A stretch of 64,000 nucleotides of DNA. It comes from Leptolyngbya ohadii IS1 (GTDB lineage Bacteria; Cyanobacteriota; Cyanobacteriia; Elainellales; Elainellaceae). The position numbers were made by a program, and so were the translations under genes. The stretch spans positions 3,129,080 through 3,193,079 of the forward strand of contig NZ_NKFP01000006.1 of NCBI RefSeq assembly GCF_002215035.1, written 5' to 3'. Below the pieces are notes generated by a model. It was not told where the DNA came from. It made no database searches and saw only the letters and a list, made by a program, of their open reading frames with translations. Positions 3,196 through 35,923 of the stretch are shown one piece after another. The stretch's first letter is position 1. Each line of letters begins with the position of its first letter.

Positions 3196-4062
3196 CTAGT
3201 CCTCCAAATAGCCCTGAAGCTGAGACTGGAGGCGCTGCCTCGCTCTAGCAATGCGAGATTTGACCGTGCCCAGAGTCACGCCCGTAATTTCGGCGATTTC
3301 CTCGTAAGCCATGCCCTCAATCTCGCGCAGGACGATCGTAGTCCGAAAAACTTCCGGTAGGTCAGCAATTGCTGTCCGGAGCTGATCGTAGAATTCCTGC
3401 GTTGCTAGCTGCTCTGCCGGACCCGGATCGTCGGAGGCAATCTCCCAATCCATTTCGCCATCTTCTACGTTGAGCGGTGCATCCAGCGACAAAGGCGTGC
3501 TAATGCGCTTCCGCTTCCGCAGTTCGTCGTAAAACAGATTGGTGGCGATCCGGCTCAGCCAGCCCCGAAACTTTCCGGGTTCCTGAAGCCGTTTGATGTT
3601 CCGGTAGACCCGAATCCACACTTCCTGAGACAAATCTGCCCGATCAGTCCAGTCGGGGGCAAGGTGATATAGCACCTTTTCGACATGGGAGTGATAGCGG
3701 CGAATCAGTTCAGCAAACAAGGCTTTTCCAGGACGCAGACCCTCCTGGCACTGCAAGATCAGGTCGAAGTTAGACAGTTTTTCAACTGGCATAGCAGCCT
3801 GGGGGGCAATTGCCTCAACCGCTGACCAGGATACCGGGAGTGATTCGCTGCTCATGGACAGAACTTGACTCTGTGGGATTCCAGTAGGATGTGACGCTGT
3901 CATTTGTGAGATGTTCCCCAATGTGAGTGGAAGGTGAATAAGCGATGCGTTTGCTTTGGAGATAGGTTCATTCGGTTCTGATACGGGTTGAGCCTTGGCT
4001 GGCACAATTACTGAGATCCGCTTATTCTGAAGTTTCAGAAAACTTTGAACATCAAAGGTCAA
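3196..4062 (-). CDS. sigG: ECF-family RNA polymerase sigma factor, SigG-like
   Basis: The C-terminal about 200 residues contain sigma region 2 (DLSQEVWIRVYRNIKRL...FRGWLSRIATNLFYDELRKRKR) and region 4 (LPEVFRTTIVLREIEGMAYEEIAEITGVTLGTVKSRIARARQ), the extracytoplasmic-function arrangement. The downstream anti-sigma gene supports a SigG-type stress sigma. The start is doubtful: the longest frame gives 288 aa from 4062, but an ATG at 3903 (residue 54, MTASHPT) gives 235 aa, closer to what I expect for the family. Residues about 9-36 of the long form are encoded by an 83-bp segment repeated in inverted orientation at 4331-4413, so the extra N-terminus may be untranslated leader. I favour 3903. 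Confidence 0.85.
   Translation of the reverse strand: MTFDVQSFLKLQNKRISVIVPAKAQPVSEPNEPISKANASLIHLPLTLGNISQMTASHPTGIPQSQVLSMSSESLPVSWSAVEAIAPQAAMPVEKLSNFDLILQCQEGLRPGKALFAELIRRYHSHVEKVLYHLAPDWTDRADLSQEVWIRVYRNIKRLQEPGKFRGWLSRIATNLFYDELRKRKRISTPLSLDAPLNVEDGEMDWEIASDDPGPAEQLATQEFYDQLRTAIADLPEVFRTTIVLREIEGMAYEEIAEITGVTLGTVKSRIARARQRLQSQLQGYLED
3958..4040 (-). repeat. 83-bp inverted repeat, arm 1 (sigma-gene leader)
   Basis: The reverse complement of this segment is identical to 4331-4413. It covers the upstream part of the sigma-gene frame. Weaker similarity continues into the flank (GTTCAAAGTTTTCTGAAAC here, GTTCAGAAACTTCTGAAAC in the other copy). Confidence 0.95.
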
Positions 4063-4199
4063 CCATTTCTAAAGATTCAGAAAAGACTGAACCAAACAAT
4101 GAAAATGATTGAGTTTTCTGGTAGTACACTGCCCCTGAAAATCTTCCCAAGGTTCTAGCTGGAGCCCTGGCGTTACTGAATACTTCTGTCTAACCTTTT

Positions 4200-4343
4200 T
4201 GAAGTTTCAGAAGTTTCTGAACGTTCATTATATTCAAATCCCAGTTTGGGAACAAGGTCTCTCTGTAAAAATTTTTACAGAGAGACCTTGTTCCCAAACT
4301 GGGATTTGAATATAATGAACGTTCAGAAACTTCTGAAACTTCA
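4200..4343. repeat. 144-bp perfect palindrome without a loop
   Basis: The two 72-nt arms meet between 4271 and 4272 (...GTAAAAA/TTTTTAC...). Every base from 4200 to 4343 pairs with its partner, and symmetry breaks on the next base out. DNA could extrude a long cruciform, and RNA from either strand would form a 70-bp duplex. It sits between the divergent sigma gene and the small gene starting near 4400, and its right end overlaps the 83-bp inverted repeat. An assembly fold-back artefact is the main alternative. Confidence 0.95.
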
Positions 4344-4413
4344 GAATAAGCGGATCTCAGTAATTGTGCCAGCCAAGGCTCAACCCGTATCAGAACCGAA
4401 TGAACCTATCTCC
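4331..4413 (+). repeat. 83-bp inverted repeat, arm 2
   Basis: Identical to the reverse complement of 3958-4040. In one frame it encodes the same peptide (ISVIVPAKAQPVSEPNEPIS) as the extended sigma-gene N-terminus. The gene that follows uses a different frame, so this copy is not read as that peptide in a functional protein. Confidence 0.95.
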
Positions 4414-4699
4414 CAAGCCAACCCCAATCACCCATATCACCTTCCACTACCTCAACGGTCAGAGTGAAACCTTCAACCTGTATGAGCCGATCGAAGACAG
4501 CACAGCCCAGGGCTTACAGCTTGAGGTGCGTCATCTACTTCAGCGGGACTGGTGGATTTTGCACTTGCAAGAGCAAACGGTTATGGTCAATATTGCAAAT
4601 GTGACAAAAGTTGAAGTGAAGCCTAGCCTGACCCATCTTCAGGGCGAAGGGATTTTCTCTGATGTGGAACGGGTTACGGCTTTAAATCGATCGCACTAA
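4400..4699 (+). CDS. Conserved-looking small hypothetical protein
   Basis: Predicted 99 aa from the ATG at 4400; a TTG at 4364 would add 12 residues. No named domain is recognised. The body (THITFHYLNGQSETFNLYEP...LLQRDWWILHLQEQTVMVNIANVTKVEVKP) alternates hydrophobic and polar residues as in a small all-beta fold and is soluble, without a signal peptide. It is divergent from the sigma gene and 48 bp ahead of a DUF362 gene. Its first codons lie in the 83-bp inverted repeat, and no convincing Shine-Dalgarno sequence precedes either start, so the start is uncertain. Confidence 0.6.
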   Translation: MNLSPKPTPITHITFHYLNGQSETFNLYEPIEDSTAQGLQLEVRHLLQRDWWILHLQEQTVMVNIANVTKVEVKPSLTHLQGEGIFSDVERVTALNRSH

Positions 4700-4747
4700 A
4701 CTGCTTTTTCACAACGTCCTATCCAGTCCCCCTTCAGGAGCAGCACC

Positions 4748-5728
4748 GTGTCTCATCAGACCCCTAACCCGGCAACTGTTAGCTTGATTCGTGCAGAGTC
4801 CTACGAACGGTCGCAGCTAGAAGCGTCTCTGCGTACTCTGCTGGAGCCGTTGGGCGGCATAGGGGCGTTTGTGAAACCGGGCGATCGGGTTTTGCTGAAG
4901 CCGAATCTGTTGACTGGGGCGCGTCCAGGGAAGGAATGCACTACCCGCGCAGAGCTGGTCTACTGTGTAGCAAAGCTAGTGCAGGAAGCAGGCGGCAAGC
5001 CCTTCTTAGGGGACAGTCCTGCGTTTGGCAGTGCGAAGGGCGTGGCGTTAGCAAATGGCTATGCGCCGATTTTGGAGGATCTCAAGCTGCCGATTATCGA
5101 CTTTCAGGGCAAGCGTTACAAGACAGTGAGCGAGGAATTTAATCATCTGCTGCTGAGCAAAGAGGCGATCGAGGCGGATGTGGTGATTAACCTGCCCAAA
5201 ATTAAATCCCATGTGCAGCTTACCCTGACGATGGGCGTGAAGAATTTATTTGGCTGCGTTCCCGGCAAAATGAAAGCCTGGTGGCACATGGAAGCCGGAA
5301 AGGACGTGGTGCGGTTTGGCAATATGCTGGCGGAAACAGCAAGGGCAATTAACCCGGATCTGACGATTGTAGACGGCATTATCGGACACGAAGGCAATGG
5401 ACCGAGCGGTGGCGAGCCTCGATCGCTGGGAGTCTTGGCGGCATCCCCCAATGTATTTGCGGTCGATCGGGCGATCGTTGACGTGCTAAACGCTGATCCG
5501 GAAATGATCCCCACGGTGGCAGCATCGATGCGGCTGGGTTTCTGTCCTAAACTCCACGAAATTAATTTCCCGCTACTCACCCCGACCGAGCTGCGCGTCA
5601 CGGACTGGAAACTGCCCGAAAAACTGGTGCCGATCGACTTTGGGCTACCCCGCGTGATGAAGTCCACCTTCCGTCATTTCTATATCCGCTTCATCAAGGA
5701 GCCGATCGCTGCCTATAGCGGACGGTAA
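4748..5728 (+). CDS. DUF362 domain protein
   Basis: Predicted 326 aa, starting at GTG 4748 behind a good AGGAG at 4736-4740. It resembles the DUF362 family throughout: PGDRVLLKPNLL near the start, then GDSPAFGS, INLPKIKSH, MGVKNLFGCVPG and IVDGIIGHEGNGPSGG. In some bacteria this domain is joined to ferredoxin-type 4Fe-4S domains, but none is present here. The biochemical activity of the stand-alone family is not established as far as I know. It follows the small gene at 4400-4699 on the same strand and is probably cotranscribed with it; pgi converges from the other side. Confidence 0.85.
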   Translation: MSHQTPNPATVSLIRAESYERSQLEASLRTLLEPLGGIGAFVKPGDRVLLKPNLLTGARPGKECTTRAELVYCVAKLVQEAGGKPFLGDSPAFGSAKGVALANGYAPILEDLKLPIIDFQGKRYKTVSEEFNHLLLSKEAIEADVVINLPKIKSHVQLTLTMGVKNLFGCVPGKMKAWWHMEAGKDVVRFGNMLAETARAINPDLTIVDGIIGHEGNGPSGGEPRSLGVLAASPNVFAVDRAIVDVLNADPEMIPTVAASMRLGFCPKLHEINFPLLTPTELRVTDWKLPEKLVPIDFGLPRVMKSTFRHFYIRFIKEPIAAYSGR

Positions 5729-5826
5729 AAGCACAAACAAGAAAAAGGGGGATTCAAGGGCAACAAAATCTGCACCAGAAGTTTGAACTCAGACAGATTC
5801 GAGCGCCTCAGCACCCCCAGGCTGCG

Positions 5827-7428
5827 CTACTTGAGTCCGATCGTTAAGCGCTCCGGCTGAGCCAGATTGCCGCTCAGAATGACACCCCGACCGTTCATCG
5901 ACAAATGACGGACAATTTTGTAAACCGATTCGATGCGATCGGCAGCTCCGATTTTGTCTGCCAGGGTCGTGAGGGCGATCGGCTGTCCGGCTTCGTGCAG
6001 GGTTTGCATAATTTGACGCTGGAGATCGAGGATGGCAGCAGCGGCTTTCTTTCCGGCTTCTACGCCGGGCTGGTGGTAGGCGTTCACGTTCACCATCGAT
6101 CCATAAAGACTCACTGCCCGTTCATATAGAGCAATTAATGCACCCACCATACGGGGAGTCACCTCCGGAACGGTAATCGTGATCGAGTCGCGGTTGTTTT
6201 CGTAGAGTGCCTGTCTTGTTCCTTGCAGCAAGCCTGAGAGGAAATCGCCGGAAGTTACGCCCGGTTCCACTTCGATCGACGCACCTGAGCGATCGTGCAG
6301 CACTTCAATAAAGGTGACAAAGAAATTGTTCACCCCTTCGCGCAGCTGCTGGACGTAGGCGTGCTGGTCAGTTGACCCTTTGTTGCCGTACACCGCGATG
6401 CCCTGGTAGACCGTATTGCCGTCCAGATCTTTCTCCTTGCCCAGGGATTCCATCACCAGTTGCTGCAAATAGCGGGAGAAGAGAAGCAGGCTGTCTTTGT
6501 AGGGCAGGATCACCATATCCTTTTCGCCCTTGCCGTTGCCTTCCGCATACCAGGCAAACGCCAGCAGAGCCGAGGGATTCTTTCGCAGATCGGGGACGCG
6601 GGTTGCGGCATCCATTTCCTTTGCGCCTGCCAGCATCGCGTCGATATCAATGCCCTGAAGCGCCGCCGGAAGCAAACCCACAGCCGACATCTCCGAAGTG
6701 CGACCGCCCACCCAGTCGTGCATCGGGAAAATATCGAGCCAGCCTTCCGACTTTGCCAGCTTCTCAAAATTACTGCCAATTCCGGTGACGGCAACCGCGT
6801 GCTGAGCAAAATTCAAGCCCTGCTGCTCATAGAAATGCTTGACCTCCAGCATTCCGTTCCGCGTTTCGGGCGTGCCGCCAGATTTAGAAGTGGCAATCAC
6901 CAGCGTTGAGACAAGCCGATCCTTCAGCATTGCCATCACCCGATCGATTCCTGCCGGATCTGTGTTGTCGATAAAGTGAACCTGCATAGGCGGATTCACC
7001 GACCCCAGCGCCTCTGCCACAAACTGCGGACCCAGTGCTGATCCCCCAATGCCGATCGATAGCACATCGGTAAATTTTGCCGCATCGGTGGGTCGAATTT
7101 CCCCGGCATGGACGCGCTTGGCAAAGGTATGAATCTGCTGGAGGGTTCCGGTGATGTCCTGCTTCAGTTCTGGTGTAGGGGCAAGGTCGGGATCGCGCAG
7201 CCAGTAATGTCCCACCATGCGGTTTTCGTCTGGATTGGCGATCGCCCCACCTTCCAGGGCAGCCACATCGCGAAAGGCTTTCTCCAGTTTCGGCTGCATC
7301 ATGGACAGGAAGCGATCGTCAAACCGAATTCGGCTAATGTCCACGTACAGCCCCAGCCCTTCATGGAAGTAGAGCCAGTCCTGATAGCGTTGCCATAATT
7401 CTGCTGCATCCAGCTTTGCGGCATCCAT
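5827..7428 (-). CDS. pgi: Glucose-6-phosphate isomerase
   Basis: Predicted 533 aa, normal length for cyanobacterial Pgi. It interconverts glucose-6-phosphate and fructose-6-phosphate in glycolysis, gluconeogenesis and the oxidative pentose phosphate route, in the cytosol. Visible family features are the SIS sugar-phosphate-binding segments ([35 protein letters not shown]), the [14 protein letters not shown] motif and the [14 protein letters not shown] signature near the C-terminus. It reads convergently to the DUF362 gene and is probably monocistronic. Confidence 0.96.
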
Positions 7429-8066
7429 AAGTCTTCTGCTTGTAGGTCATTTAGTTCTCCCAATAGTTTACCGATCGCCTATGAAGAAAAAATCTGAATT
7501 TTGTGTGAGGTTGTGTTAGCCCAAACTGCCTGTTGGGAGATGAACGCACATTTTCTGAGAGAAATCAACATAACAAAATCCAGCTTCTCAAGACTTCTCC
7601 AGGGAGATTCAGCAAAGACTGGTGTGCCCCATCTGGAAGTAGCTAGAAATACAAATGACAGGGTTTGCGATCGAATTTATGTAAAAAGGTAGAGAAACAG
7701 TCTCGTGGATGAAATCGTAGGTCAGCAAAATCTAACAATCGGTCTTCCTGACAGCAATAGATTTCCCGTCCGAGGAGAGAGTCCGTTACGTTGCTCCTAT
7801 GACACTCTGAATATAAGGAAATCAAGCAGCAAGTCTAATTCAGTTTTGCCGAAACCGTTTTGTCTAAGAAGTAGTTGTCTAAGAAGTAGACCCGTTGATT
7901 AGATCAGAACCTTTACGAAAATCTTAGAAAGAAGTGCAACTTCTTAGAGAGAAGTTAGAGATTAGACAGACGTTAGAGAGAAGTGCAACTTCAATGTGAG
8001 AGCCTATTTCCGACGTCACTCAAAGTAAACATTTATACGCTCCTCGATCGCCCTTTCTACAAACCT
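7429..8066. other. 638-bp intergenic region with short repeats
   Basis: Lies between the divergent pgi and the membrane-protein gene at 8067. Short frames here (7501-7692, 7705-7902) look like chance. A perfect 14-of-15 tandem pair (TGTCTAAGAAGTAG plus one base) lies at 7861-7890, followed by two copies of a GAGAGAAGTGCAACTTC-like unit up to 7993. No RNA gene was recognised. Confidence 0.5.
7861..7890. repeat. 15-bp tandem duplication (x2)
   Basis: TGTCTAAGAAGTAGT is followed directly by TGTCTAAGAAGTAGA. A related AGAAGT-rich stretch continues downstream to about 7993. Confidence 0.85.
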
Positions 8067-8756
8067 ATGAGCAATCAAATTTCGCTGCAAGCAAACAAAC
8101 TTTGGGGACTCATTTCTGCCCCCACTACTGCTGTCATCTACAAGCAAGCCCTCTCTATCACCTGGACAATCTTAAAGGAAACTGGAAAGCTTCTGTGGCT
8201 GGTTTTCTGTGTGTTCCTGGTTGCCTTCGATTGGTTCTGGAACAATTCGATTCGCATGGGTCGTCAATCTCGTGCTTGGATGGATAAATTCGATCGCACC
8301 AACGACATGGCGAGTGAAGAAATGTGGGAAGACATCGTCTCTTCCACCCGCTCCAGCTTTAACTCCCTGGTGACAAAGGCAAGAAAACAGCTTGGACTTT
8401 ACGGTGAGCCTGACCTGAGTTCTGTAGGGAGTTCTACCAGTGGGGCGATCGTGCCTGCTACCAGTGCGGAGATTGCGCCAATCTCTACCGTTTCGCCGAT
8501 GAAGCGATATGAGGCTGCGGGCGAAGATGAGCCTGTTATATTGAGCGGTGGTTTTATGGCAAATTCTCAAAGCAGCTCCGCAGAGGAGTCTTCAATGAAC
8601 AGTGACGAAAATCCCAGTGGAACGATCGAAACCAATGCTGAGCCTGAGACGGTTTCTGTGAAGTCGGTTTCTCCTAAGCAAAAGGATAAGGTTGGCGAAG
8701 ACGAAGAAGTGGAACATTCGCCGCTGAAAGATGCGAACTCGCCTACCAACAGCTAG
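8067..8756 (+). CDS. Hypothetical single-pass membrane protein with acidic tail
   Basis: Predicted 229 aa from the ATG at 8067 (MSNQISLQANK); the frame is open further upstream to 7983, but that extension looks non-coding. One hydrophobic helix lies at about residues 41-64 (LLWLVFCVFLVAFDWFWNN). A basic, helical segment of about 60 residues follows, then a long tail rich in Ser, Glu, Thr and Pro that is probably disordered. No family is recognised. It is followed by a clear terminator at 8803-8832, so it is likely transcribed alone. Confidence 0.6.
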   Translation: MSNQISLQANKLWGLISAPTTAVIYKQALSITWTILKETGKLLWLVFCVFLVAFDWFWNNSIRMGRQSRAWMDKFDRTNDMASEEMWEDIVSSTRSSFNSLVTKARKQLGLYGEPDLSSVGSSTSGAIVPATSAEIAPISTVSPMKRYEAAGEDEPVILSGGFMANSQSSSAEESSMNSDENPSGTIETNAEPETVSVKSVSPKQKDKVGEDEEVEHSPLKDANSPTNS

Positions 8757-8802
8757 CAGAAACAGCTTCAGTCAAAGGACTGTAAGTGATGGATTCTCTG
8801 AA

Positions 8803-8832
8803 GGGGTGAGTTAAACTCGCCCTTTTTCTTTT
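8803..8832 (+). terminator. Rho-independent terminator
   Basis: GGGTGAGT pairs with ACTCGCCC (one G-T pair) around a TAA loop and is followed by TTTTTCTTTT. It is placed 47 bp after the stop codon of the membrane-protein gene. Confidence 0.8.
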
Positions 8833-8850
8833 GTTTCTGTTAGGTAAAGT

Positions 8851-8883
8851 ATCCCGTAGGGGCGATTCATGAACTGCCCTTAC
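8851..8883. repeat. Dispersed palindromic repeat, copy 1
   Basis: ATCCCGTAGGGGCGATTCAT and the following GAACTGCCCTTAC match the copy at 17741-17773 at all but about five of 33 positions, mostly compensating changes in the GGGCG...CGCCC stem. It is an intergenic hairpin repeat, probably multi-copy in the genome. Confidence 0.7.
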
Positions 8884-9177
8884 CGATATTCCTTCTGACC
8901 CGTTATCTATTTGTTGTTAATAGGTACACCACCCTTACCAATTGCCCCTCAAACAACAATCAATTTGTCACGGAACGTTCAAAAATTAGCCTAATCTTCT
9001 CCCTTTGATAGACCTAAGCCGATCGACTATTGCTCTCCTGGTAGATCAGCTTGTCTGCCCAAATTTTCTAAATTAGACAATATCTTTTCATGCTTATTCA
9101 AACGCTTTGTAGGGTGGCAATATCCACCAGAACATTCTTTTTATTGTCCTAATTTCATCAACTTCATGGAGTTCACT
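8884..9177. other. Intergenic region, nothing clear seen
   Basis: Upstream region of the small membrane-protein gene at 9178. It is AT-rich, with no open frame of note and no hairpin followed by a T-run. Confidence 0.4.
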
Positions 9178-9546
9178 ATGGCAGACCATCATTCAATTTC
9201 TTCGGACTCACAGCGCAATCATTTGGATGATCGAGCGGCGACTTTGCGATCGAATACTCCCATCTATCGAGCGATCGACAGCGGCATTACGACTCGACGC
9301 GCCACCGCAGATGAGATTGCTTTCCGGGATGGCTACGTCCAGGGACGCGAGCAGGAGCGACGCAGACAGGCACACGAACAGCGCCGGATGCAGGAGTTCT
9401 ACGCCCATCAGGGCATGGTTGGCGGTTTGCTCACCGGGATTCTGCTGACGCTCACCGTCGGGTTTATTACGACCCTGCTAGCGGTGAATGCGCCGCAATG
9501 GGAAACGGAACTGCCCCAGCCACAAACAAATCAGCCGCTTCGGTAA
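9178..9546 (+). CDS. Hypothetical small membrane protein
   Basis: Predicted 122 aa. The ATG at 9178 is chosen over the ATG at 9166 because a GGAG at 9168-9171 is spaced six bases from it. The N-terminal about 75 residues are polar and strongly charged (DGYVQGREQERRRQAHEQRRMQEF), probably helical. One transmembrane helix follows at about residues 79-103 (VGGLLTGILLTLTVGFITTLL), with a short Pro/Gln-rich end. No known family is recognised. It converges on metH with only 15 bp between the stops. Confidence 0.65.
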   Translation: MADHHSISSDSQRNHLDDRAATLRSNTPIYRAIDSGITTRRATADEIAFRDGYVQGREQERRRQAHEQRRMQEFYAHQGMVGGLLTGILLTLTVGFITTLLAVNAPQWETELPQPQTNQPLR

Positions 9547-9561
9547 ATTTATCTGCCAAGT

Positions 9562-12500
9562 CTACGCGCTAAAGTACTTCGCAGCCGGGTGGTAAGCCAC
9601 GATCGCCGTAGTGGACTGCTCCGGGTAGAGCTGCTCGCTCTCGTCCATGTGTAGCCCGATCCGCTCCGCGCCCAACAGATCAAGCTGGATGTACTGATCC
9701 TGGATGTTGGGACAAGCCGGATAGCCGAAGCTATAGCGGGAGCCACGATATCGCTGTGCCAGAATGTCCCGAATGCTGGTCGGTTCTTCTGAGGTAAAGC
9801 CGAGTTCGCGACGAATCCGGACGTGTGTCCATTCCGCCAGAGCCTCTGCAACCTGAACGGCGAGTCCGTGAAAGTAGAGGTAATCGGTGTATTGGTTTGC
9901 CTCGAATAGCTTTTTGGCAAATTCGGTTGCTACTTCGCCCACCGTAACTGCCTGCATGGGGAAGGCATCATAGCGGGTCGCACCTTCCTGGGGCTGGAAG
10001 AAGTCGGCAATGCAAAGCCGCCGCAGGGATTTCTGGCGCGGGAAAGTGAAGGTAGCAATGGGCTGCTCCTGTCCAGGAGTACGAGCGCCTACTGTCGGAT
10101 CAAAAATATTCAGCGAATTCCCTTCCGCAAGGCAGGGAAAATAGCCGTAGACCACCTGAGGCTGAAGCAATCTCTCCTCTTGGATGCGCTGCTTCCACTG
10201 TTCCAGAATCGGGTAGACCTTGGCGGCAAGGAAGGCATCGTACTCTTCGCGGGTCTGCTCCTTCGGCTTGCGGAACTGCCACTGTCCGGCGATGAGTGCC
10301 TGCAAGTCCAGATAGGCAAAGACTTCCTCAAAGGGCAGGTCTTCGGGGTTGAGAATCTGCGTTCCCCAGAAGGGCGGCGTGGGACGATCGATTTCAATTT
10401 CTACCGCATCCGATCGCCTTGTATCAATCACCTTCTCCTCAAAGGCAGGCGTTTCAGCAACTGCTTCCTCGATCGGCTGATGATCCTTAGTTTCGGGCAG
10501 GCTTTCCTCGTTCAGGAATCCCTTGAGGTCGTCCCATTCTCCTGCGGTTTTAGCAGGCATCAGCTTATCCATGAAGTGCAGGTCGGCAAAGGCATCTTTA
10601 CCGTAGACCACCCGACCGCGATAGGCGTTCTGGCAATCCTCGTAGACAAATTTGGGCGTGAGTGCCGCACCGCCGAGAATCACAGGAACCGTGATGCCCC
10701 GCTCGTTGAACACCTCCAGATTTTCCTTCATGAAGGCAGTCGATTTCACCAGCAGACCGCTCATGGCGATACAGTCCGCCCCATGCTGCTCATACGCCTC
10801 GATAATGTTGTCCACGGGCTGCTTGATGCCCAGGTTAATCACCTTGTAGCCGTTGTTGGTGAGGATGATGTCTACGAGGTTTTTGCCGATGTCATGTACG
10901 TCGCCCTTCACCGTGGCGATCAGGAAGACCCCCTTGTGGCTCTTGCCCGACTCCTGCTTTTCCATGTGCGGTTCCAGGAATGCCACCGCAGACTTCATCG
11001 TTTCCGCCGACTGGAGGACGAACGGCAACTGCATCTGACCCGACCCAAACAGATCGCCCACGACCTTCATGCCGTCCAGCAGGTAGGTGTTGATGATTTC
11101 CAGCGGCGCGTACTTTTTCATTGCTTCCGCCAGAGCATCCTCTAAGCCAATCCGCTCCCCGTCGATGATGTGCTGCTTCAGGCGTTCCTCGATCGGTAAG
11201 TTTGCTGTATCGCTTCTCGATCGCGTCTCCTTCGTGGAAACCCCTTCAAACAGGGTGGTCAATTCGGTCAGCGGATCGTAGACGCAAACATCCCCCTCAA
11301 AGCGGCGGCGATCGTAGATTAGATCCCGACAGACCTGTTGATACCGCTCATCAATCTTGGCGATCGGCAAAATTTTCGCGGCGCTGATAATCGCTCCATC
11401 CATCCCTGCCTCGACCGCTTCATGGAGGAACATGGAGTTCAGCACAATCCGCGCCGCCGGACTCAGACCGAAGGAAATATTCGAGACACCCAGGATAATA
11501 TGAACGCCCGGCAGGTTTTCCCGAATCATCCGAATGGATTCGATCGTCGCTCTGCCGTTTGCCCGGTCTTCCTCAATGCCTGTCGAGATGGGCAGCGCCA
11601 GCGGATCGTAGAAGATTTCGTGTGCCGGAATGCCGTATTCGAGTGCGTCCCGGTATGCTCTTTGAGCGATCGCAAATTTCTGCTCGGCGGTTCGCGCCAT
11701 GCCGTCTTCGTCGATCGTCCCTACGACCACACCTGCCCCGTATTCTTTGGCAAGCTCCAGGACTTTAAAGAATCGCTCGTCGCCGTCTTCATAGTTGGTG
11801 GAGTTGAGCAGACATTTGCCGCCCGCAACCTTCAGACCCGCCTCCATCTTCTGCCATTCGGTCGAGTCCAGCATCAGGGGCAGATTCACATTCGTCACCA
11901 GTCGGGAAACGACTTCGCGCATATCGCGCACCCCGTCCCGTCCCACGTAGTCTACGTTTACGTCCAGGACGTGCGCCCCCTCTTTCACCTGCGATCGTGC
12001 CAGGGACACCAGACCGTCCCAGTCCTCGGCATTCAGCAGATCCCGGCATTTCTTCGAGCCGCTAGCGTTGAGGCGTTCGCCAATAATCAGGAAGGAATTG
12101 TCCTGATCGTAGGGCTGGGTGGAATAGATAGAAGCCGCAGCCGGAACATAGTCCAGTGCTGGACGGGGATCATCCTCAGTATGGATCAGCCCACGCACCG
12201 ATCGCGACTTCGGTTGTAGAGTTGCCGAAATTTCCGCAAGCTGCTGGATATGTTCGGGTTTTGTGCCGCAGCAGCCGCCGATCACCTGAACGCCCAAATC
12301 CTCGACGAAGCGGGTCAGCGCCATCCGCAGTTCCATCGGAGTCAGCTTGTAGTGGGCGTGTCCGCCGACGTTTTCGGGAATGCCTGCGTTGGGAATACAG
12401 GACACTACAAAGGGCGAATGCTGCGACAGGTACTTAATATGCTCCGCCATTCGATCGGGTCCAGTGGCACAGTTCAGCCCCAGAACGTCGATCGGGTAGG

Positions 12501-33440: not shown

Positions 33441-33514
<74 letters not shown>

Positions 33515-33559
33515 TGCGGCAAGGCACTGCTTAAGCTTACAAGCTTAGGTCAACAACAC

Positions 33560-33632
33560 GGGGGTTTAGCTCAGTTGGTAGAGCGCCTGCTTTGCAAGCA
33601 GGATGTCAGCGGTTCGAGTCCGCTAACCTCCA
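33560..33632 (+). tRNA. trnA-UGC: tRNA-Ala (anticodon TGC)
   Basis: A 73-nt cloverleaf: acceptor GGGGGTT with AACCTCC gives the G3-U70 wobble that identifies tRNA-Ala. Anticodon loop TTTGCAA (TGC), T-arm GCGG-TTCGAGT-CCGC. It is separated from tRNA-Ile by 45 bp and probably shares its promoter. Confidence 0.96.
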
Positions 33633-34306: not shown

Positions 34307-34933
34307 ATGCCTAAAACTGCTGCTAAAACTAAGTCAGCTAAGCCTGCAACTACAAAATCAGTCAAATCAGAAAACTCTGCTCCACTCAACTCACTGTTAC
34401 AGAATGAAATTGCTCGGCTTTCAGAACTACATGGAGTCAATACCTCTGTTTTTGAGGAATTTGCTCAATTTGTGATCACTAATCACAAGAAGAAAGACCA
34501 AGCAGTTAAACCAGTAAAAGTTAAACCACTCACGCTATCGCAGCTTAAGACCGCTATCTATCAACATTTTTCAGTTAAAAATACAACTGAACTCAAGAAG
34601 TCCGGTGCGTTTAAGATGGCAACTGATGGCATGGACGCACTTGATTTAGGTGTTAAAGAAGGTTGGAAAAAGCTCTATCGCAAGTTCGTTGGCATTCTCC
34701 CTGGAGAGGAGGATCAAAAAGGCTATGGCTGCATTAATGGAATTAACGTTTTTCAATACTTTAAGCCCTGGCAGGTCTTTGAACTTAACCCGCAAACTGC
34801 AACCCAGCAGGATATTAAGAATGCCTACCATCGCTTAAGCAAAATCTACCATCCTGATGTTGCTGGAACAGGTGATGCCGCAATGTTTGACTGTTTGACC
34901 GTGATGTATAAGAGTATTAGCGCAGAGGCGTGA
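34307..34933 (+). CDS. J-domain (DnaJ-like) protein, C-terminal J domain
   Basis: Predicted 208 aa. Residues 1-25 are a Lys/Ala/Thr-rich disordered tail. Residues about 30-150 are a helical region of no recognised family. Residues about 154-205 form a J domain (WQVFELNPQTATQQDIKNAYHRLSKIYHPDV), with the Hsp70-stimulating HPD at 182-184 intact. J domains are usually N-terminal, so this order is unusual. The gene is 3 bp upstream of the HNH nuclease-like gene, so the two are almost certainly one operon. Base composition is more AT-rich than in neighbouring genes. Inferred role: recruiting DnaK to its partner or to a target. Confidence 0.75.
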   Translation: MPKTAAKTKSAKPATTKSVKSENSAPLNSLLQNEIARLSELHGVNTSVFEEFAQFVITNHKKKDQAVKPVKVKPLTLSQLKTAIYQHFSVKNTTELKKSGAFKMATDGMDALDLGVKEGWKKLYRKFVGILPGEEDQKGYGCINGINVFQYFKPWQVFELNPQTATQQDIKNAYHRLSKIYHPDVAGTGDAAMFDCLTVMYKSISAEA

Positions 34934-34936
34934 GTC

Positions 34937-35923
34937 ATGGCTAAACAGAAAACGGGCTTCACAATTCGTGAGGCTGAACTTGCTGCGGCTTTAGAAATTA
35001 CGCACGAAAGATTAGACGAAATTATTATATTTTTTGATGCCGACCCAAGCGATCAGTGGGAACTCCGTGAGAACGATCATTTTATTTTCCTCAATAAGAA
35101 CTTAGGGGAAAGGCTGTTCTCCGAGCAGGGAGCCTATGCGATCGCAAAATACCTCGACGAGAAGGCAGCTAAAAGCATTTGGCAACTTATCACAGAGTTT
35201 ATTACCCGACATAAGGAAAAGATTCGCAACGCCTTTATCAGTCGAAAGATTCAGGAAAACTGTAGTTCACTTACTGTTAGAAATAACCGTCACTTTCTTT
35301 CAAAGAAGGATGTAGTGAGCATTCTTTGTACTAGTCCAGCGCGGTTGAACAAGGCGTTTGAGGAAATTCAGAAGTCGTATGATCCCATGAAGATCTACGA
35401 GGACTTCGATGATATTGATGGCGTTCGATATTATTCACTTTCGGGCTTCTACAAGCTCTCGCAGCATCTCGCTCAGAAATTAACAGTCAAAGATCGACGG
35501 GGTTGGTGTGAGGCGATCGAGGTTGTTGGAAAGAAAACCTTTAAGTTAATAATCGATGAGCAGACTGCCAGGCAGAAGAAAATTGAAGCTGCAATGAGAG
35601 GAGCTAAGAAGCGAGATAAAAGTCAGTGTCAAATCACAGGCAAGTCTCACGGGAAACATAGCAAAGCGATTAATGTCACTGTACATCACATCTATTCCAA
35701 GCAGCACTATCCTCATCTTGCAGCTTGTGTAGATAACCTCATTACTCTCACACAGGAAGTTCATCAGGACTTTCACACCTGGAACGGCGGTTCTCAAAAG
35801 CCTTGCACTGCCGATCACTTGATTCAATTTGTTACCGAACTTTATCCCGACAACTACGAGGTCATTCTCAAACTCAATCAGGTCAAACAAATACTAGATT
35901 CACAGTCTAGTAAGGCAGCATAA
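34937..35923 (+). CDS. HNH-type endonuclease-like protein with duplicated N-terminal domains
   Basis: Predicted 328 aa. The C-terminal region has an HNH-like ββα signature: Cys231 in SQCQITG, His250-His251-Ile in VTVHHIYSKQHYPH, Asn267 in DNLITL and His276/His280 in EVHQDFHTW. This resembles nicking or phage-type HNH nucleases, though only part of the usual zinc cysteines is present. The N-terminal half seems to contain two copies of a roughly 65-residue module (REAELAAALEITHERLDEII...SEQGAYAIAKYL at about 10-75; KKDVVSILCTSPARLNKAF...SLSGFYKLSQHL at about 122-181), perhaps helix-turn-helix DNA binding. Its partner J-domain gene is directly upstream. Confidence 0.7.
   Translation: MAKQKTGFTIREAELAAALEITHERLDEIIIFFDADPSDQWELRENDHFIFLNKNLGERLFSEQGAYAIAKYLDEKAAKSIWQLITEFITRHKEKIRNAFISRKIQENCSSLTVRNNRHFLSKKDVVSILCTSPARLNKAFEEIQKSYDPMKIYEDFDDIDGVRYYSLSGFYKLSQHLAQKLTVKDRRGWCEAIEVVGKKTFKLIIDEQTARQKKIEAAMRGAKKRDKSQCQITGKSHGKHSKAINVTVHHIYSKQHYPHLAACVDNLITLTQEVHQDFHTWNGGSQKPCTADHLIQFVTELYPDNYEVILKLNQVKQILDSQSSKAA

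Follow-up and report, generated by a model that had tools for sequence, protein, structure and literature searches.

Why would a gene for a J-domain co-chaperone be coupled to a gene for a nuclease, close to a pair of tRNA genes, in a cyanobacterial genome? The question is raised by a locus of Leptolyngbya ohadii IS1 (RefSeq assembly GCF_002215035.1, contig NZ_NKFP01000006.1) within a stretch of 64,000 nucleotides, positions 3,129,080 to 3,193,079 of the forward strand, referred to here as the window. A preliminary description of the window had noted a protein with a C-terminal J domain encoded just before an HNH-like protein, and had suggested a defence or mobile module. Both open reading frames (ORFs) are present as it described them, on the same strand with the J gene first and a 3-bp gap between them, and the HNH protein has a single copy in its own genome. 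The two genes form a conserved module with linkage far beyond chance, and we think that they are probably an unnamed two-gene unit that moves between cyanobacterial genomes as a block and settles at gene ends, a chaperone-controlled selfish or defensive module. The genes and the parts of their proteins are listed below by position in the window.

34307-34933, + strand: J gene (protein P0001, 208 amino acids); ORF, with a family of 29 aligned relatives
34391-34486, + strand: N-terminal helical hairpin of the J protein, residues 29-60; AlphaFold2 model, mean pLDDT (model confidence) 84
34535-34690, + strand: middle helical domain of the J protein, residues 77-128; model, with a conserved motif in A2
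34754-34930, + strand: J domain, residues 150-208, with HPD at 182-184; Pfam DnaJ, HPD invariance and 5nro
34937-35923, + strand: HNH gene (protein P0002, 328 amino acids), winged helix/winged helix/HNH; ORF, with 27 aligned relatives
34955-35173, + strand: winged-helix module 1, MerR type, residues 7-79 of the HNH protein; superposition
35282-35488, + strand: winged-helix module 2, Par/MerR type, residues 116-184; superposition
35567-35896, + strand: predicted HNH nuclease domain, residues 211-320; invariant residues, PHROG and superposition

Linkage and make-up of the pair

An initial survey of 146 relatives found the HNH family in 29 of them, and the main survey covered 388 cyanobacterial genomes drawn across the class. 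The HNH family is matched in 80 of these (E ≤ 1e-6) and the J family in 75 (E ≤ 1e-20). Of the 76 HNH hits that cover at least 240 of 330 model positions (near full length), 75 are preceded within 1 kb by a J gene in the same orientation, with 2-240 bp between aligned ends; the 76th hit begins 70 bp from a contig end. Reciprocally, an HNH hit is missing for 4 of 82 J hits, one of which is 125 bp from the edge of its contig. When GTDB genomes were scanned independently with only the J family, 92 relatives were obtained, of which 80 were kept, and an HNH-profile hit follows downstream in 75 of the 80, two of these hits being remnants. The trees of the two proteins mirror each other (r 0.85 over 69 pairs, as against 0.10 or less in 999 permutations), consistent with co-evolution. 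The module idea had been made to depend on whether homologues of the two genes co-occur, and as a J gene immediately precedes the HNH gene in 75 of 76 cases, it stands; on this linkage and the mirrored trees we reject the idea that the two are unrelated neighbours.

The ratio of nonsynonymous to synonymous substitution rates (dN/dS) between the window's pair and that of a sister genome is 0.080 for J and 0.058 for HNH, and it ranges from 0.045 to 0.55 over the 31 of 34 comparisons in which it is defined; by this measure both genes are under purifying selection. In the HNH tree the window's protein groups with those of Nostoc, Calothrix and another Nostocales genome, and other Nostocales copies (Nostoc sp. 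CHAB 5844, Sphaerospermopsis) are placed elsewhere. The pair is patchily distributed and, as judged from its phylogeny, spreads horizontally. All the GTDB J relatives that were kept are cyanobacterial by label save one metagenome-assembled genome of Bifidobacterium breve; the pair on this contig (locus L160) nests among Synechococcus-like pairs, and the label is probably that of a mislabelled bin.

No third gene recurs with the pair. The membrane protein P0003 (33730-34044) was considered as a third component and rejected: it adjoins the pair in genomes G000 and G001, but G002, G006 and G018 carry P0003 and the pair on separate contigs, and P0003 is also found in genomes without the pair. More generally, only the J and HNH clusters are near-universal around the pair, and the next largest cluster occurs at 16 of 111 loci in scattered positions and orientations.

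That the first protein ends in a J domain with an intact HPD motif is borne out by a Pfam DnaJ match (E 2.5e-7, 31.1 bits, cut-off 27.8), by the invariance of H182, P183 and D184 in 29 of 29 aligned relatives, and by superposition of residues 150-208 of the model on known J domains, including the DnaK-bound 5nro (Z 7.3, root-mean-square deviation [rmsd] 1.9 over 57 residues). The N-terminus is a lysine-rich tail, with pLDDT below 50 for residues 3-23. No fold match was found for residues 29-128, a region barely covered by the comparison and thus giving no sign of a new fold. The modelled middle domain is a possible binding module for the HNH partner; in the relative at L070 it is duplicated, a second copy having been inserted. 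At L368 (1693-5389, G368:C24) the N-terminal and middle parts of the J family occur without a J domain, directly upstream of genes that look by eye like dnaK and dnaJ.

The duplicated DNA-binding modules attributed to the second protein correspond to two winged helices of MerR/Par type. Module 1 superposes on RacA 5i44 (Z 6.2, rmsd 2.0 over 59) and HiNmlR 5d90 (Z 6.2, rmsd 2.6 over 60), and module 2 on ParA2 7npd (Z 6.2, rmsd 2.2 over 59) and pSK1 Par 8csh (Z 6.1, rmsd 1.5 over 53). Whether the protein also has an HNH fold had been posed as a check on the proposal. C231, H250, H251, N267, H276, H280 and C290 are invariant in 27 of 27 relatives, PHROG HNH families match the protein (best 3e-7), and residues 211-320 align (VIA-align) with the HNH enzymes EcoKMcrA 6ghc (Z 6.8, rmsd 4.6 over 89) and VcaM4I 6yex (Z 6.2, rmsd 3.3 over 93), superpositions that are middling (Z < 8) and tied with Cas9 and other HNH domains. 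Pfam HNH_2 falls below its cut-off for the window's protein (E 0.11) and matches 12 of 27 relatives at E ≤ 0.1. A Foldseek search with the protein gave nothing significant (best E 0.35), a PDB sequence search with the family gave nothing below E 0.06, and NCBIfam gave no model for it. An HNH domain is thus supported by profiles, invariant residues and superpositions, although not by Foldseek alone. An HNH protein of 219 amino acids that resembles family residues 158-296 occurs at L370 (4119-4778, G212:C1) beside a protein of 156 amino acids and without an adjoining J gene; it is possibly of the type ancestral to the family.

Searches for a name agree with the earlier statement that no named system has this composition. 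Neither Pfam nor NCBIfam has a whole-protein family for either protein (for P0001, no NCBIfam model comes near its cut-off), the pair is not among the PADLOC models, and no description of a J-HNH pair was found in the open-licence literature. The PADLOC matches obtained are weak: REase_II at 1.9e-5 on residues 239-279 of P0002, and pAgo at 0.0077 on P0001 outside its J domain. P0002 has no match in plasmids or phages; P0001 has none in plasmids, and in phages it has only a J-domain match, in the Rhodococcus phage E3 records. Among viral contigs, 80 loci of 84 relatives were kept, mainly J-domain matches, and an HNH match is present in none. We reject a phage or plasmid origin, as there is no full-length relative in the phage, plasmid and viral-contig searches.

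Repeats, gene ends and tRNA genes around the pair

If the pair moves, its borders might show it, as the preliminary description implied by calling it a possible mobile module. We scored as tight those repeats with the upstream copy no more than 800 bp from the J gene and the downstream copy no more than 200 bp from the HNH stop codon. At 13 of 81 loci the pair lies between tight direct repeats, as against none of 258 random controls and 1 of 259 gene-bounded ones (Fisher p 3e-11, or 9e-9 when the loci are counted as only ten sites, there being about ten separate ones). The repeats are 23-179 bp long, and up to 503 bp at L093 in a broader comparison; those of L118, L122 and L123 are found where the upstream ORF has its 3′ end. 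Five loci (L118, L122, L093, L131 and L156) have a unit of 1754-1959 bp between the copies, hardly more than the two genes, and no recombinase was recognised by eye in such short units. A classical transposon with inverted repeats was considered and rejected, tight inverted repeats being present at 0 of 81 loci.

The tRNA genes of the window, which had been proposed as an integration site, lie outside the module and are likely an insertion landmark and not part of it.

33441-33514, + strand: tRNA-Ile(gat), ending 793 bp upstream of the J gene
33560-33632, + strand: tRNA-Ala(tgc), ending 675 bp upstream of the J gene

Such proximity, correctly noted as within 1 kb, is meaningful across loci: a same-strand tRNA gene lies no more than 1 kb upstream of 6 of 98 pair loci and of 1 of 571 other genes (p 5e-5), and at 5 of 97 pair loci when the window's own is set aside (p 3e-4). 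At L169, in Prochlorococcus, a tRNA-Pro gene ends 71 bp before the J gene, and its 3′ end recurs as an identical 53-bp copy 1660 bp beyond the HNH gene. The 3.4-kb element between them (5731-9201) carries the J and HNH genes and ORFs of 153 and 187 amino acids, in which no recombinase was recognised by eye, no family search having been made there. Tycheposons of Prochlorococcus are elements of 4-200 kb at tRNA genes with a tyrosine recombinase, according to PMC10872708; L169 resembles them in its host and its duplicated tRNA-Pro end, but it is only about 3.4 kb long and lacks a recombinase recognisable by eye. A tRNA end is duplicated at both borders only at L169; a copy of the tRNA end after the pair was not matched at L061, L082, L146 or L162, and L132 gave one 9-bp match. 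No such repeat is present at the window's own locus.

In the sister genome G001, about 4.6 kb of other DNA separate the tRNA-Ala gene from a 54-bp copy of its 3′ end, and the block of P0003, J and HNH genes comes just after that copy. This extra DNA (L062 reversed, 3764-8430; G001:C30) encodes an ORF of 726 amino acids and small ORFs, and no integrase was recognised in it by eye. The tRNA-Ile/tRNA-Ala pair sits in the rRNA spacer in many cyanobacteria; in the window the two genes at 33441-33632 adjoin a U32 peptidase gene, rRNA was not found in the window, and among the matches listed this is the only place in the genome with both tRNAs.

Nodosilinea provides a site at which pair-bearing and pair-free genomes can be compared (26 genomes, of which G388 has no sequence beyond gltD). 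A subfamily A pair directly follows gltD in G170 and G158, and follows a BrnTA-like pair in G245; a subfamily B pair directly follows gltD in G223 and G302, and follows other small genes in G273. The HNH proteins of the two subfamilies are only 28-31% identical, and the other Nodosilinea genomes have no pair at gltD. Six genomes have both gltD and rnc as flanks, four with J-HNH and two (G358 and G194) without; these two carry BrnT, HicA, HicB-like or DUF2283 genes in the slot, and G358 also another HNH protein (the BrnA and HicB assignments are below the Pfam cut-off). The gltD-rnc interval (L373, L412-L416) is an exchange slot for J-HNH, BrnTA-like, HicAB-like, DUF2283 and another HNH gene.

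Of the 6 loci with a pair at gltD, 5 have a second, decayed gltD 3′ end after the HNH gene; of the 19 with no pair there, one has a second end, and only weakly (p 0.0006); without five short tails of less than 2.4 kb (G361, G269, G379, G307 and G340) the figures are 5 of 6 and 1 of 14 (p 0.002). A terminator-like sequence, AAACCGGGTTTC (one mismatch allowed), occurs at one fixed distance from the gltD stop codon in 8 of 19 loci without the pair; where the pair and a second gltD copy are present, it follows the second copy in 4 of 5 loci and never the first. AAACCGGGTTTC is a short motif with 17 occurrences in 245 kb, and we take this as support and not as proof. The layout is most simply read as an incoming unit having carried in a gltD end of its own and displaced the native end downstream. 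With the repeats and the tRNA proximity, the pair looks mobile as a small unit, in keeping with the earlier suggestion.

Readings of the pair

How the two genes are lost bears on what they do to each other. After dropping 69 duplicate and 8 contig-edge loci, 85 non-redundant loci have both genes intact, six have an intact J gene with a broken or missing HNH gene, and five have both broken; there are 0 loci with an intact HNH gene and no J protein. Three loci (L070, L129 and L139) were scored by coverage as having a broken J gene beside an intact HNH gene, but we do not count them as J loss since L070 (with its inserted second middle domain), L129 (query residues 75-208) and L139 (64-205) keep the middle part and the J domain. 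Remnants of the HNH start are readable after the J gene in L091 and L148. A J protein that was a mere helper could be lost first without harm; the order seen is the opposite and, although the numbers are small, it suggests that the HNH protein is harmful without its J protein.

We favour, at about even odds (a probability near 0.5), a mobile module, selfish or addictive and perhaps protective, in which an HNH nuclease is gated by a DnaK co-chaperone of its own. The HNH protein would bind DNA through its two winged-helix modules and then cut it; the J protein would bind the nuclease and pass it to host DnaK, which would keep it inactive, remodel it or release it. Such a gated nuclease could retain the module in populations, in that chromosomes without it would be punished, as with toxin-antitoxin systems, or repaired away, as in homing, and protection against incoming DNA may come along. 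The sequences show the linkage, co-evolution, purifying selection, patchy spread, bracketing repeats, insertion beside gene and tRNA ends, a slot shared with toxin-antitoxin genes and one-sided decay, whereas DNA cleavage, J-HNH binding, DnaK gating and the mode of retention (addiction, homing or defence) are inferred. If this is right, a mobile or defensive nuclease is under the direct control of the Hsp70 system via a co-encoded co-chaperone, protein-folding stress is tied to DNA cutting, and cyanobacterial genetics gains a new mobile unit, its HNH match being present in about a fifth of sampled genomes (80 of 388).

Several observations weigh against this reading. There is no tight repeat at 68 of 81 loci, the window's included, and wide direct repeats, present at 17 of 81 loci, also occur at 9 of 258 and 12 of 259 controls. 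The pair has no general strand preference relative to the gene upstream of it (same strand in 50 cases, opposite in 37). Similar pairs of Microcystis are alike for about 140 bp before the J gene, beyond which the flanks diverge (except that L109 and L111 have 3 kb downstream in common), and they are found at several different places, which strict site-specific homing is not expected to give. At the gltD slot, the terminator-like sequence is missing after the second gltD copy of G302, and in G273 the gltD end is not duplicated. Of the six J-only loci, two (L171 and L371) rest on a frameshift, possibly a sequencing error. Finally, the excess of toxin-antitoxin genes nearby is weak: among small ORFs sampled at random (148 of 235 near the pair and 148 of 268 far from it), up to 9 of 148 near and 2 of 148 far match toxin-antitoxin families (p 0.06, for the best 25 of 34 families), and some near hits may stem from the Nodosilinea slot, L102 ORFs having been sampled. 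That toxin-antitoxin genes are recurrent company of the pair is only suggestive.

A narrower version is tentative and, to us, more doubtful than the gated nuclease in general: that the pair is a two-gene homing unit of roughly 2 kb, an HNH endonuclease switched by its own Hsp70 co-chaperone, which inserts at gene or tRNA 3′ ends with a replacement end and pushes the native end downstream. The closest parallel is in Glomus mitochondria, where, according to PMC3630166, endonuclease genes (mORFs) lie at the 3′ ends of atp6, atp9, cox2 and nad3, with the duplicated gene end beyond. As described there, these share with the pair the insertion at a 3′ gene end, the copy of the gene end on the far side and a complete upstream gene, an arrangement that we see at the gltD slot, L118, L122 and L123. 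The mORFs of that account are of LAGLIDADG or GIY-YIG type without a partner, whereas the pair consists of an HNH protein and an obligate J protein, is bacterial and also occurs beside tRNA genes. If so, bacteria would have their own version of the endonuclease ORFs that replace gene ends in fungal mitochondria.

Chaperone control of a toxic protein also has precedents. In toxin-antitoxin-chaperone (TAC) modules, the subject of PMC5105189 and PMC6377645, a chaperone is encoded with a toxic enzyme and controls it, and CmdTAC (PMC11618068) is a chaperone-linked toxin-antitoxin phage defence. TAC and CmdTAC use a SecB-like chaperone and a separate antitoxin, whereas here two genes encode a J-domain co-chaperone of DnaK and an HNH effector. 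The pair has toxin-antitoxin traits: two tightly linked co-directional genes (75 of 76), of which the J gene, as the putative antitoxin, survives alone (6 loci vs 0). The defence protein bNACHT25 degrades DNA and needs DnaJ for activation by phage proteins, according to PMC12169576; it uses the host's own DnaJ, unlike the dedicated J protein encoded here beside a predicted nuclease. Iteron-plasmid initiators and RctB have two winged-helix domains and are remodelled for DNA binding by DnaJ/DnaK (PMC5395669). The likeness to the HNH protein is in the two winged helices; the initiators, as that text describes them, serve replication, have no nuclease and use host DnaJ.

A dedicated anti-phage system is the strongest competitor, somewhat less probable than even the homing version: the J protein would sense phage proteins or chaperone load and free the HNH protein to destroy phage or host DNA, in abortive infection. 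A patchy, horizontally spread nuclease module under purifying selection would suit such a system, as would two diverged subfamilies swapping in one slot, and there are precedents for a chaperone that passes on a phage signal (PMC12169576, PMC11618068). The neighbourhood argues otherwise. The comparison took in 138 of 167 proteins near the pair and 139 of 145 far from it (110-900 amino acids; L079 and L080 were left out as same-site, and some long proteins too), and PADLOC families show no excess near the pair (19 families near vs 64 far). Defence islands are not seen around it, the pair usually stands alone, and PADLOC offers no model beyond the weak REase_II match on the HNH part; the defence role raised in the preliminary description is so far unsupported by its neighbours.

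It is unlikely that the pair is passive cargo of tycheposon-like integrative elements, moved by recombinases in trans and serving the host in, for example, DNA quality control or gene regulation. The tRNA 3′ end duplicated in L169 and beside the pair in G001, the Phage_integrase match in 2 of 138 near proteins and the short units lacking a recognised recombinase all fit such cargo, but the units at L118, L122, L093, L131 and L156 (1.75-1.96 kb) are little more than two genes, and no third gene recurs with the pair.

Still less probable is a modification-dependent, type IV-like restriction enzyme whose winged helices read modified DNA and whose J protein aids folding. EcoKMcrA and VcaM4I, the closest HNH superpositions, are both modification-dependent and, like the HNH protein, combine a DNA-reading N-terminal part with a C-terminal HNH domain; this is a similarity of fold only, at middling values (Z 6-7, rmsd 3.3-4.6) matched by Cas9 and other HNH domains. 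Their N-terminal domains differ from the MerR/Par-like winged helices found here, they have no J partner, and if J only aided folding, its outliving HNH would be unexplained. An ordinary housekeeping co-chaperone that merely happens to adjoin the HNH gene can be dismissed as highly improbable: the J domain is ordinary and persists intact at a few loci with a broken HNH gene, but the 75 of 76 linkage, the mirrored trees and a presence in 75 of 388 genomes speak against it.

Flanking sequence and minor features

The GC content is 40-44% across 34.0-36.0 kb of the window (500-bp windows) and about 50-60% for most of 26-44 kb, so that the pair is indeed AT-richer than its surroundings, as had been noted, yet a second AT-rich stretch lies nearby at 37.0-38.5 kb.

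In the thermophilic Synechococcus genus, a search for empty sites was uninformative, the flanks being rearranged, as was a comparison of the G023 flank within its own genus. A sequence of 73-80 bp upstream of the pair at L080 (10400-10480) recurs elsewhere in the thermophilic Synechococcus genus. At L134, a 1.1-kb direct repeat (4715-5802 and 9300-10388, 96% identical) flanks the pair; the duplicated gene may be the C-5 cytosine methylase matched by one small near ORF. In Microcystis (L105, L107, L109, L111 and L115), some copies of the conserved 140 bp before the J gene contain a hairpin, CCACTT-GACA-AAGTGG, which is possibly a promoter or operator.

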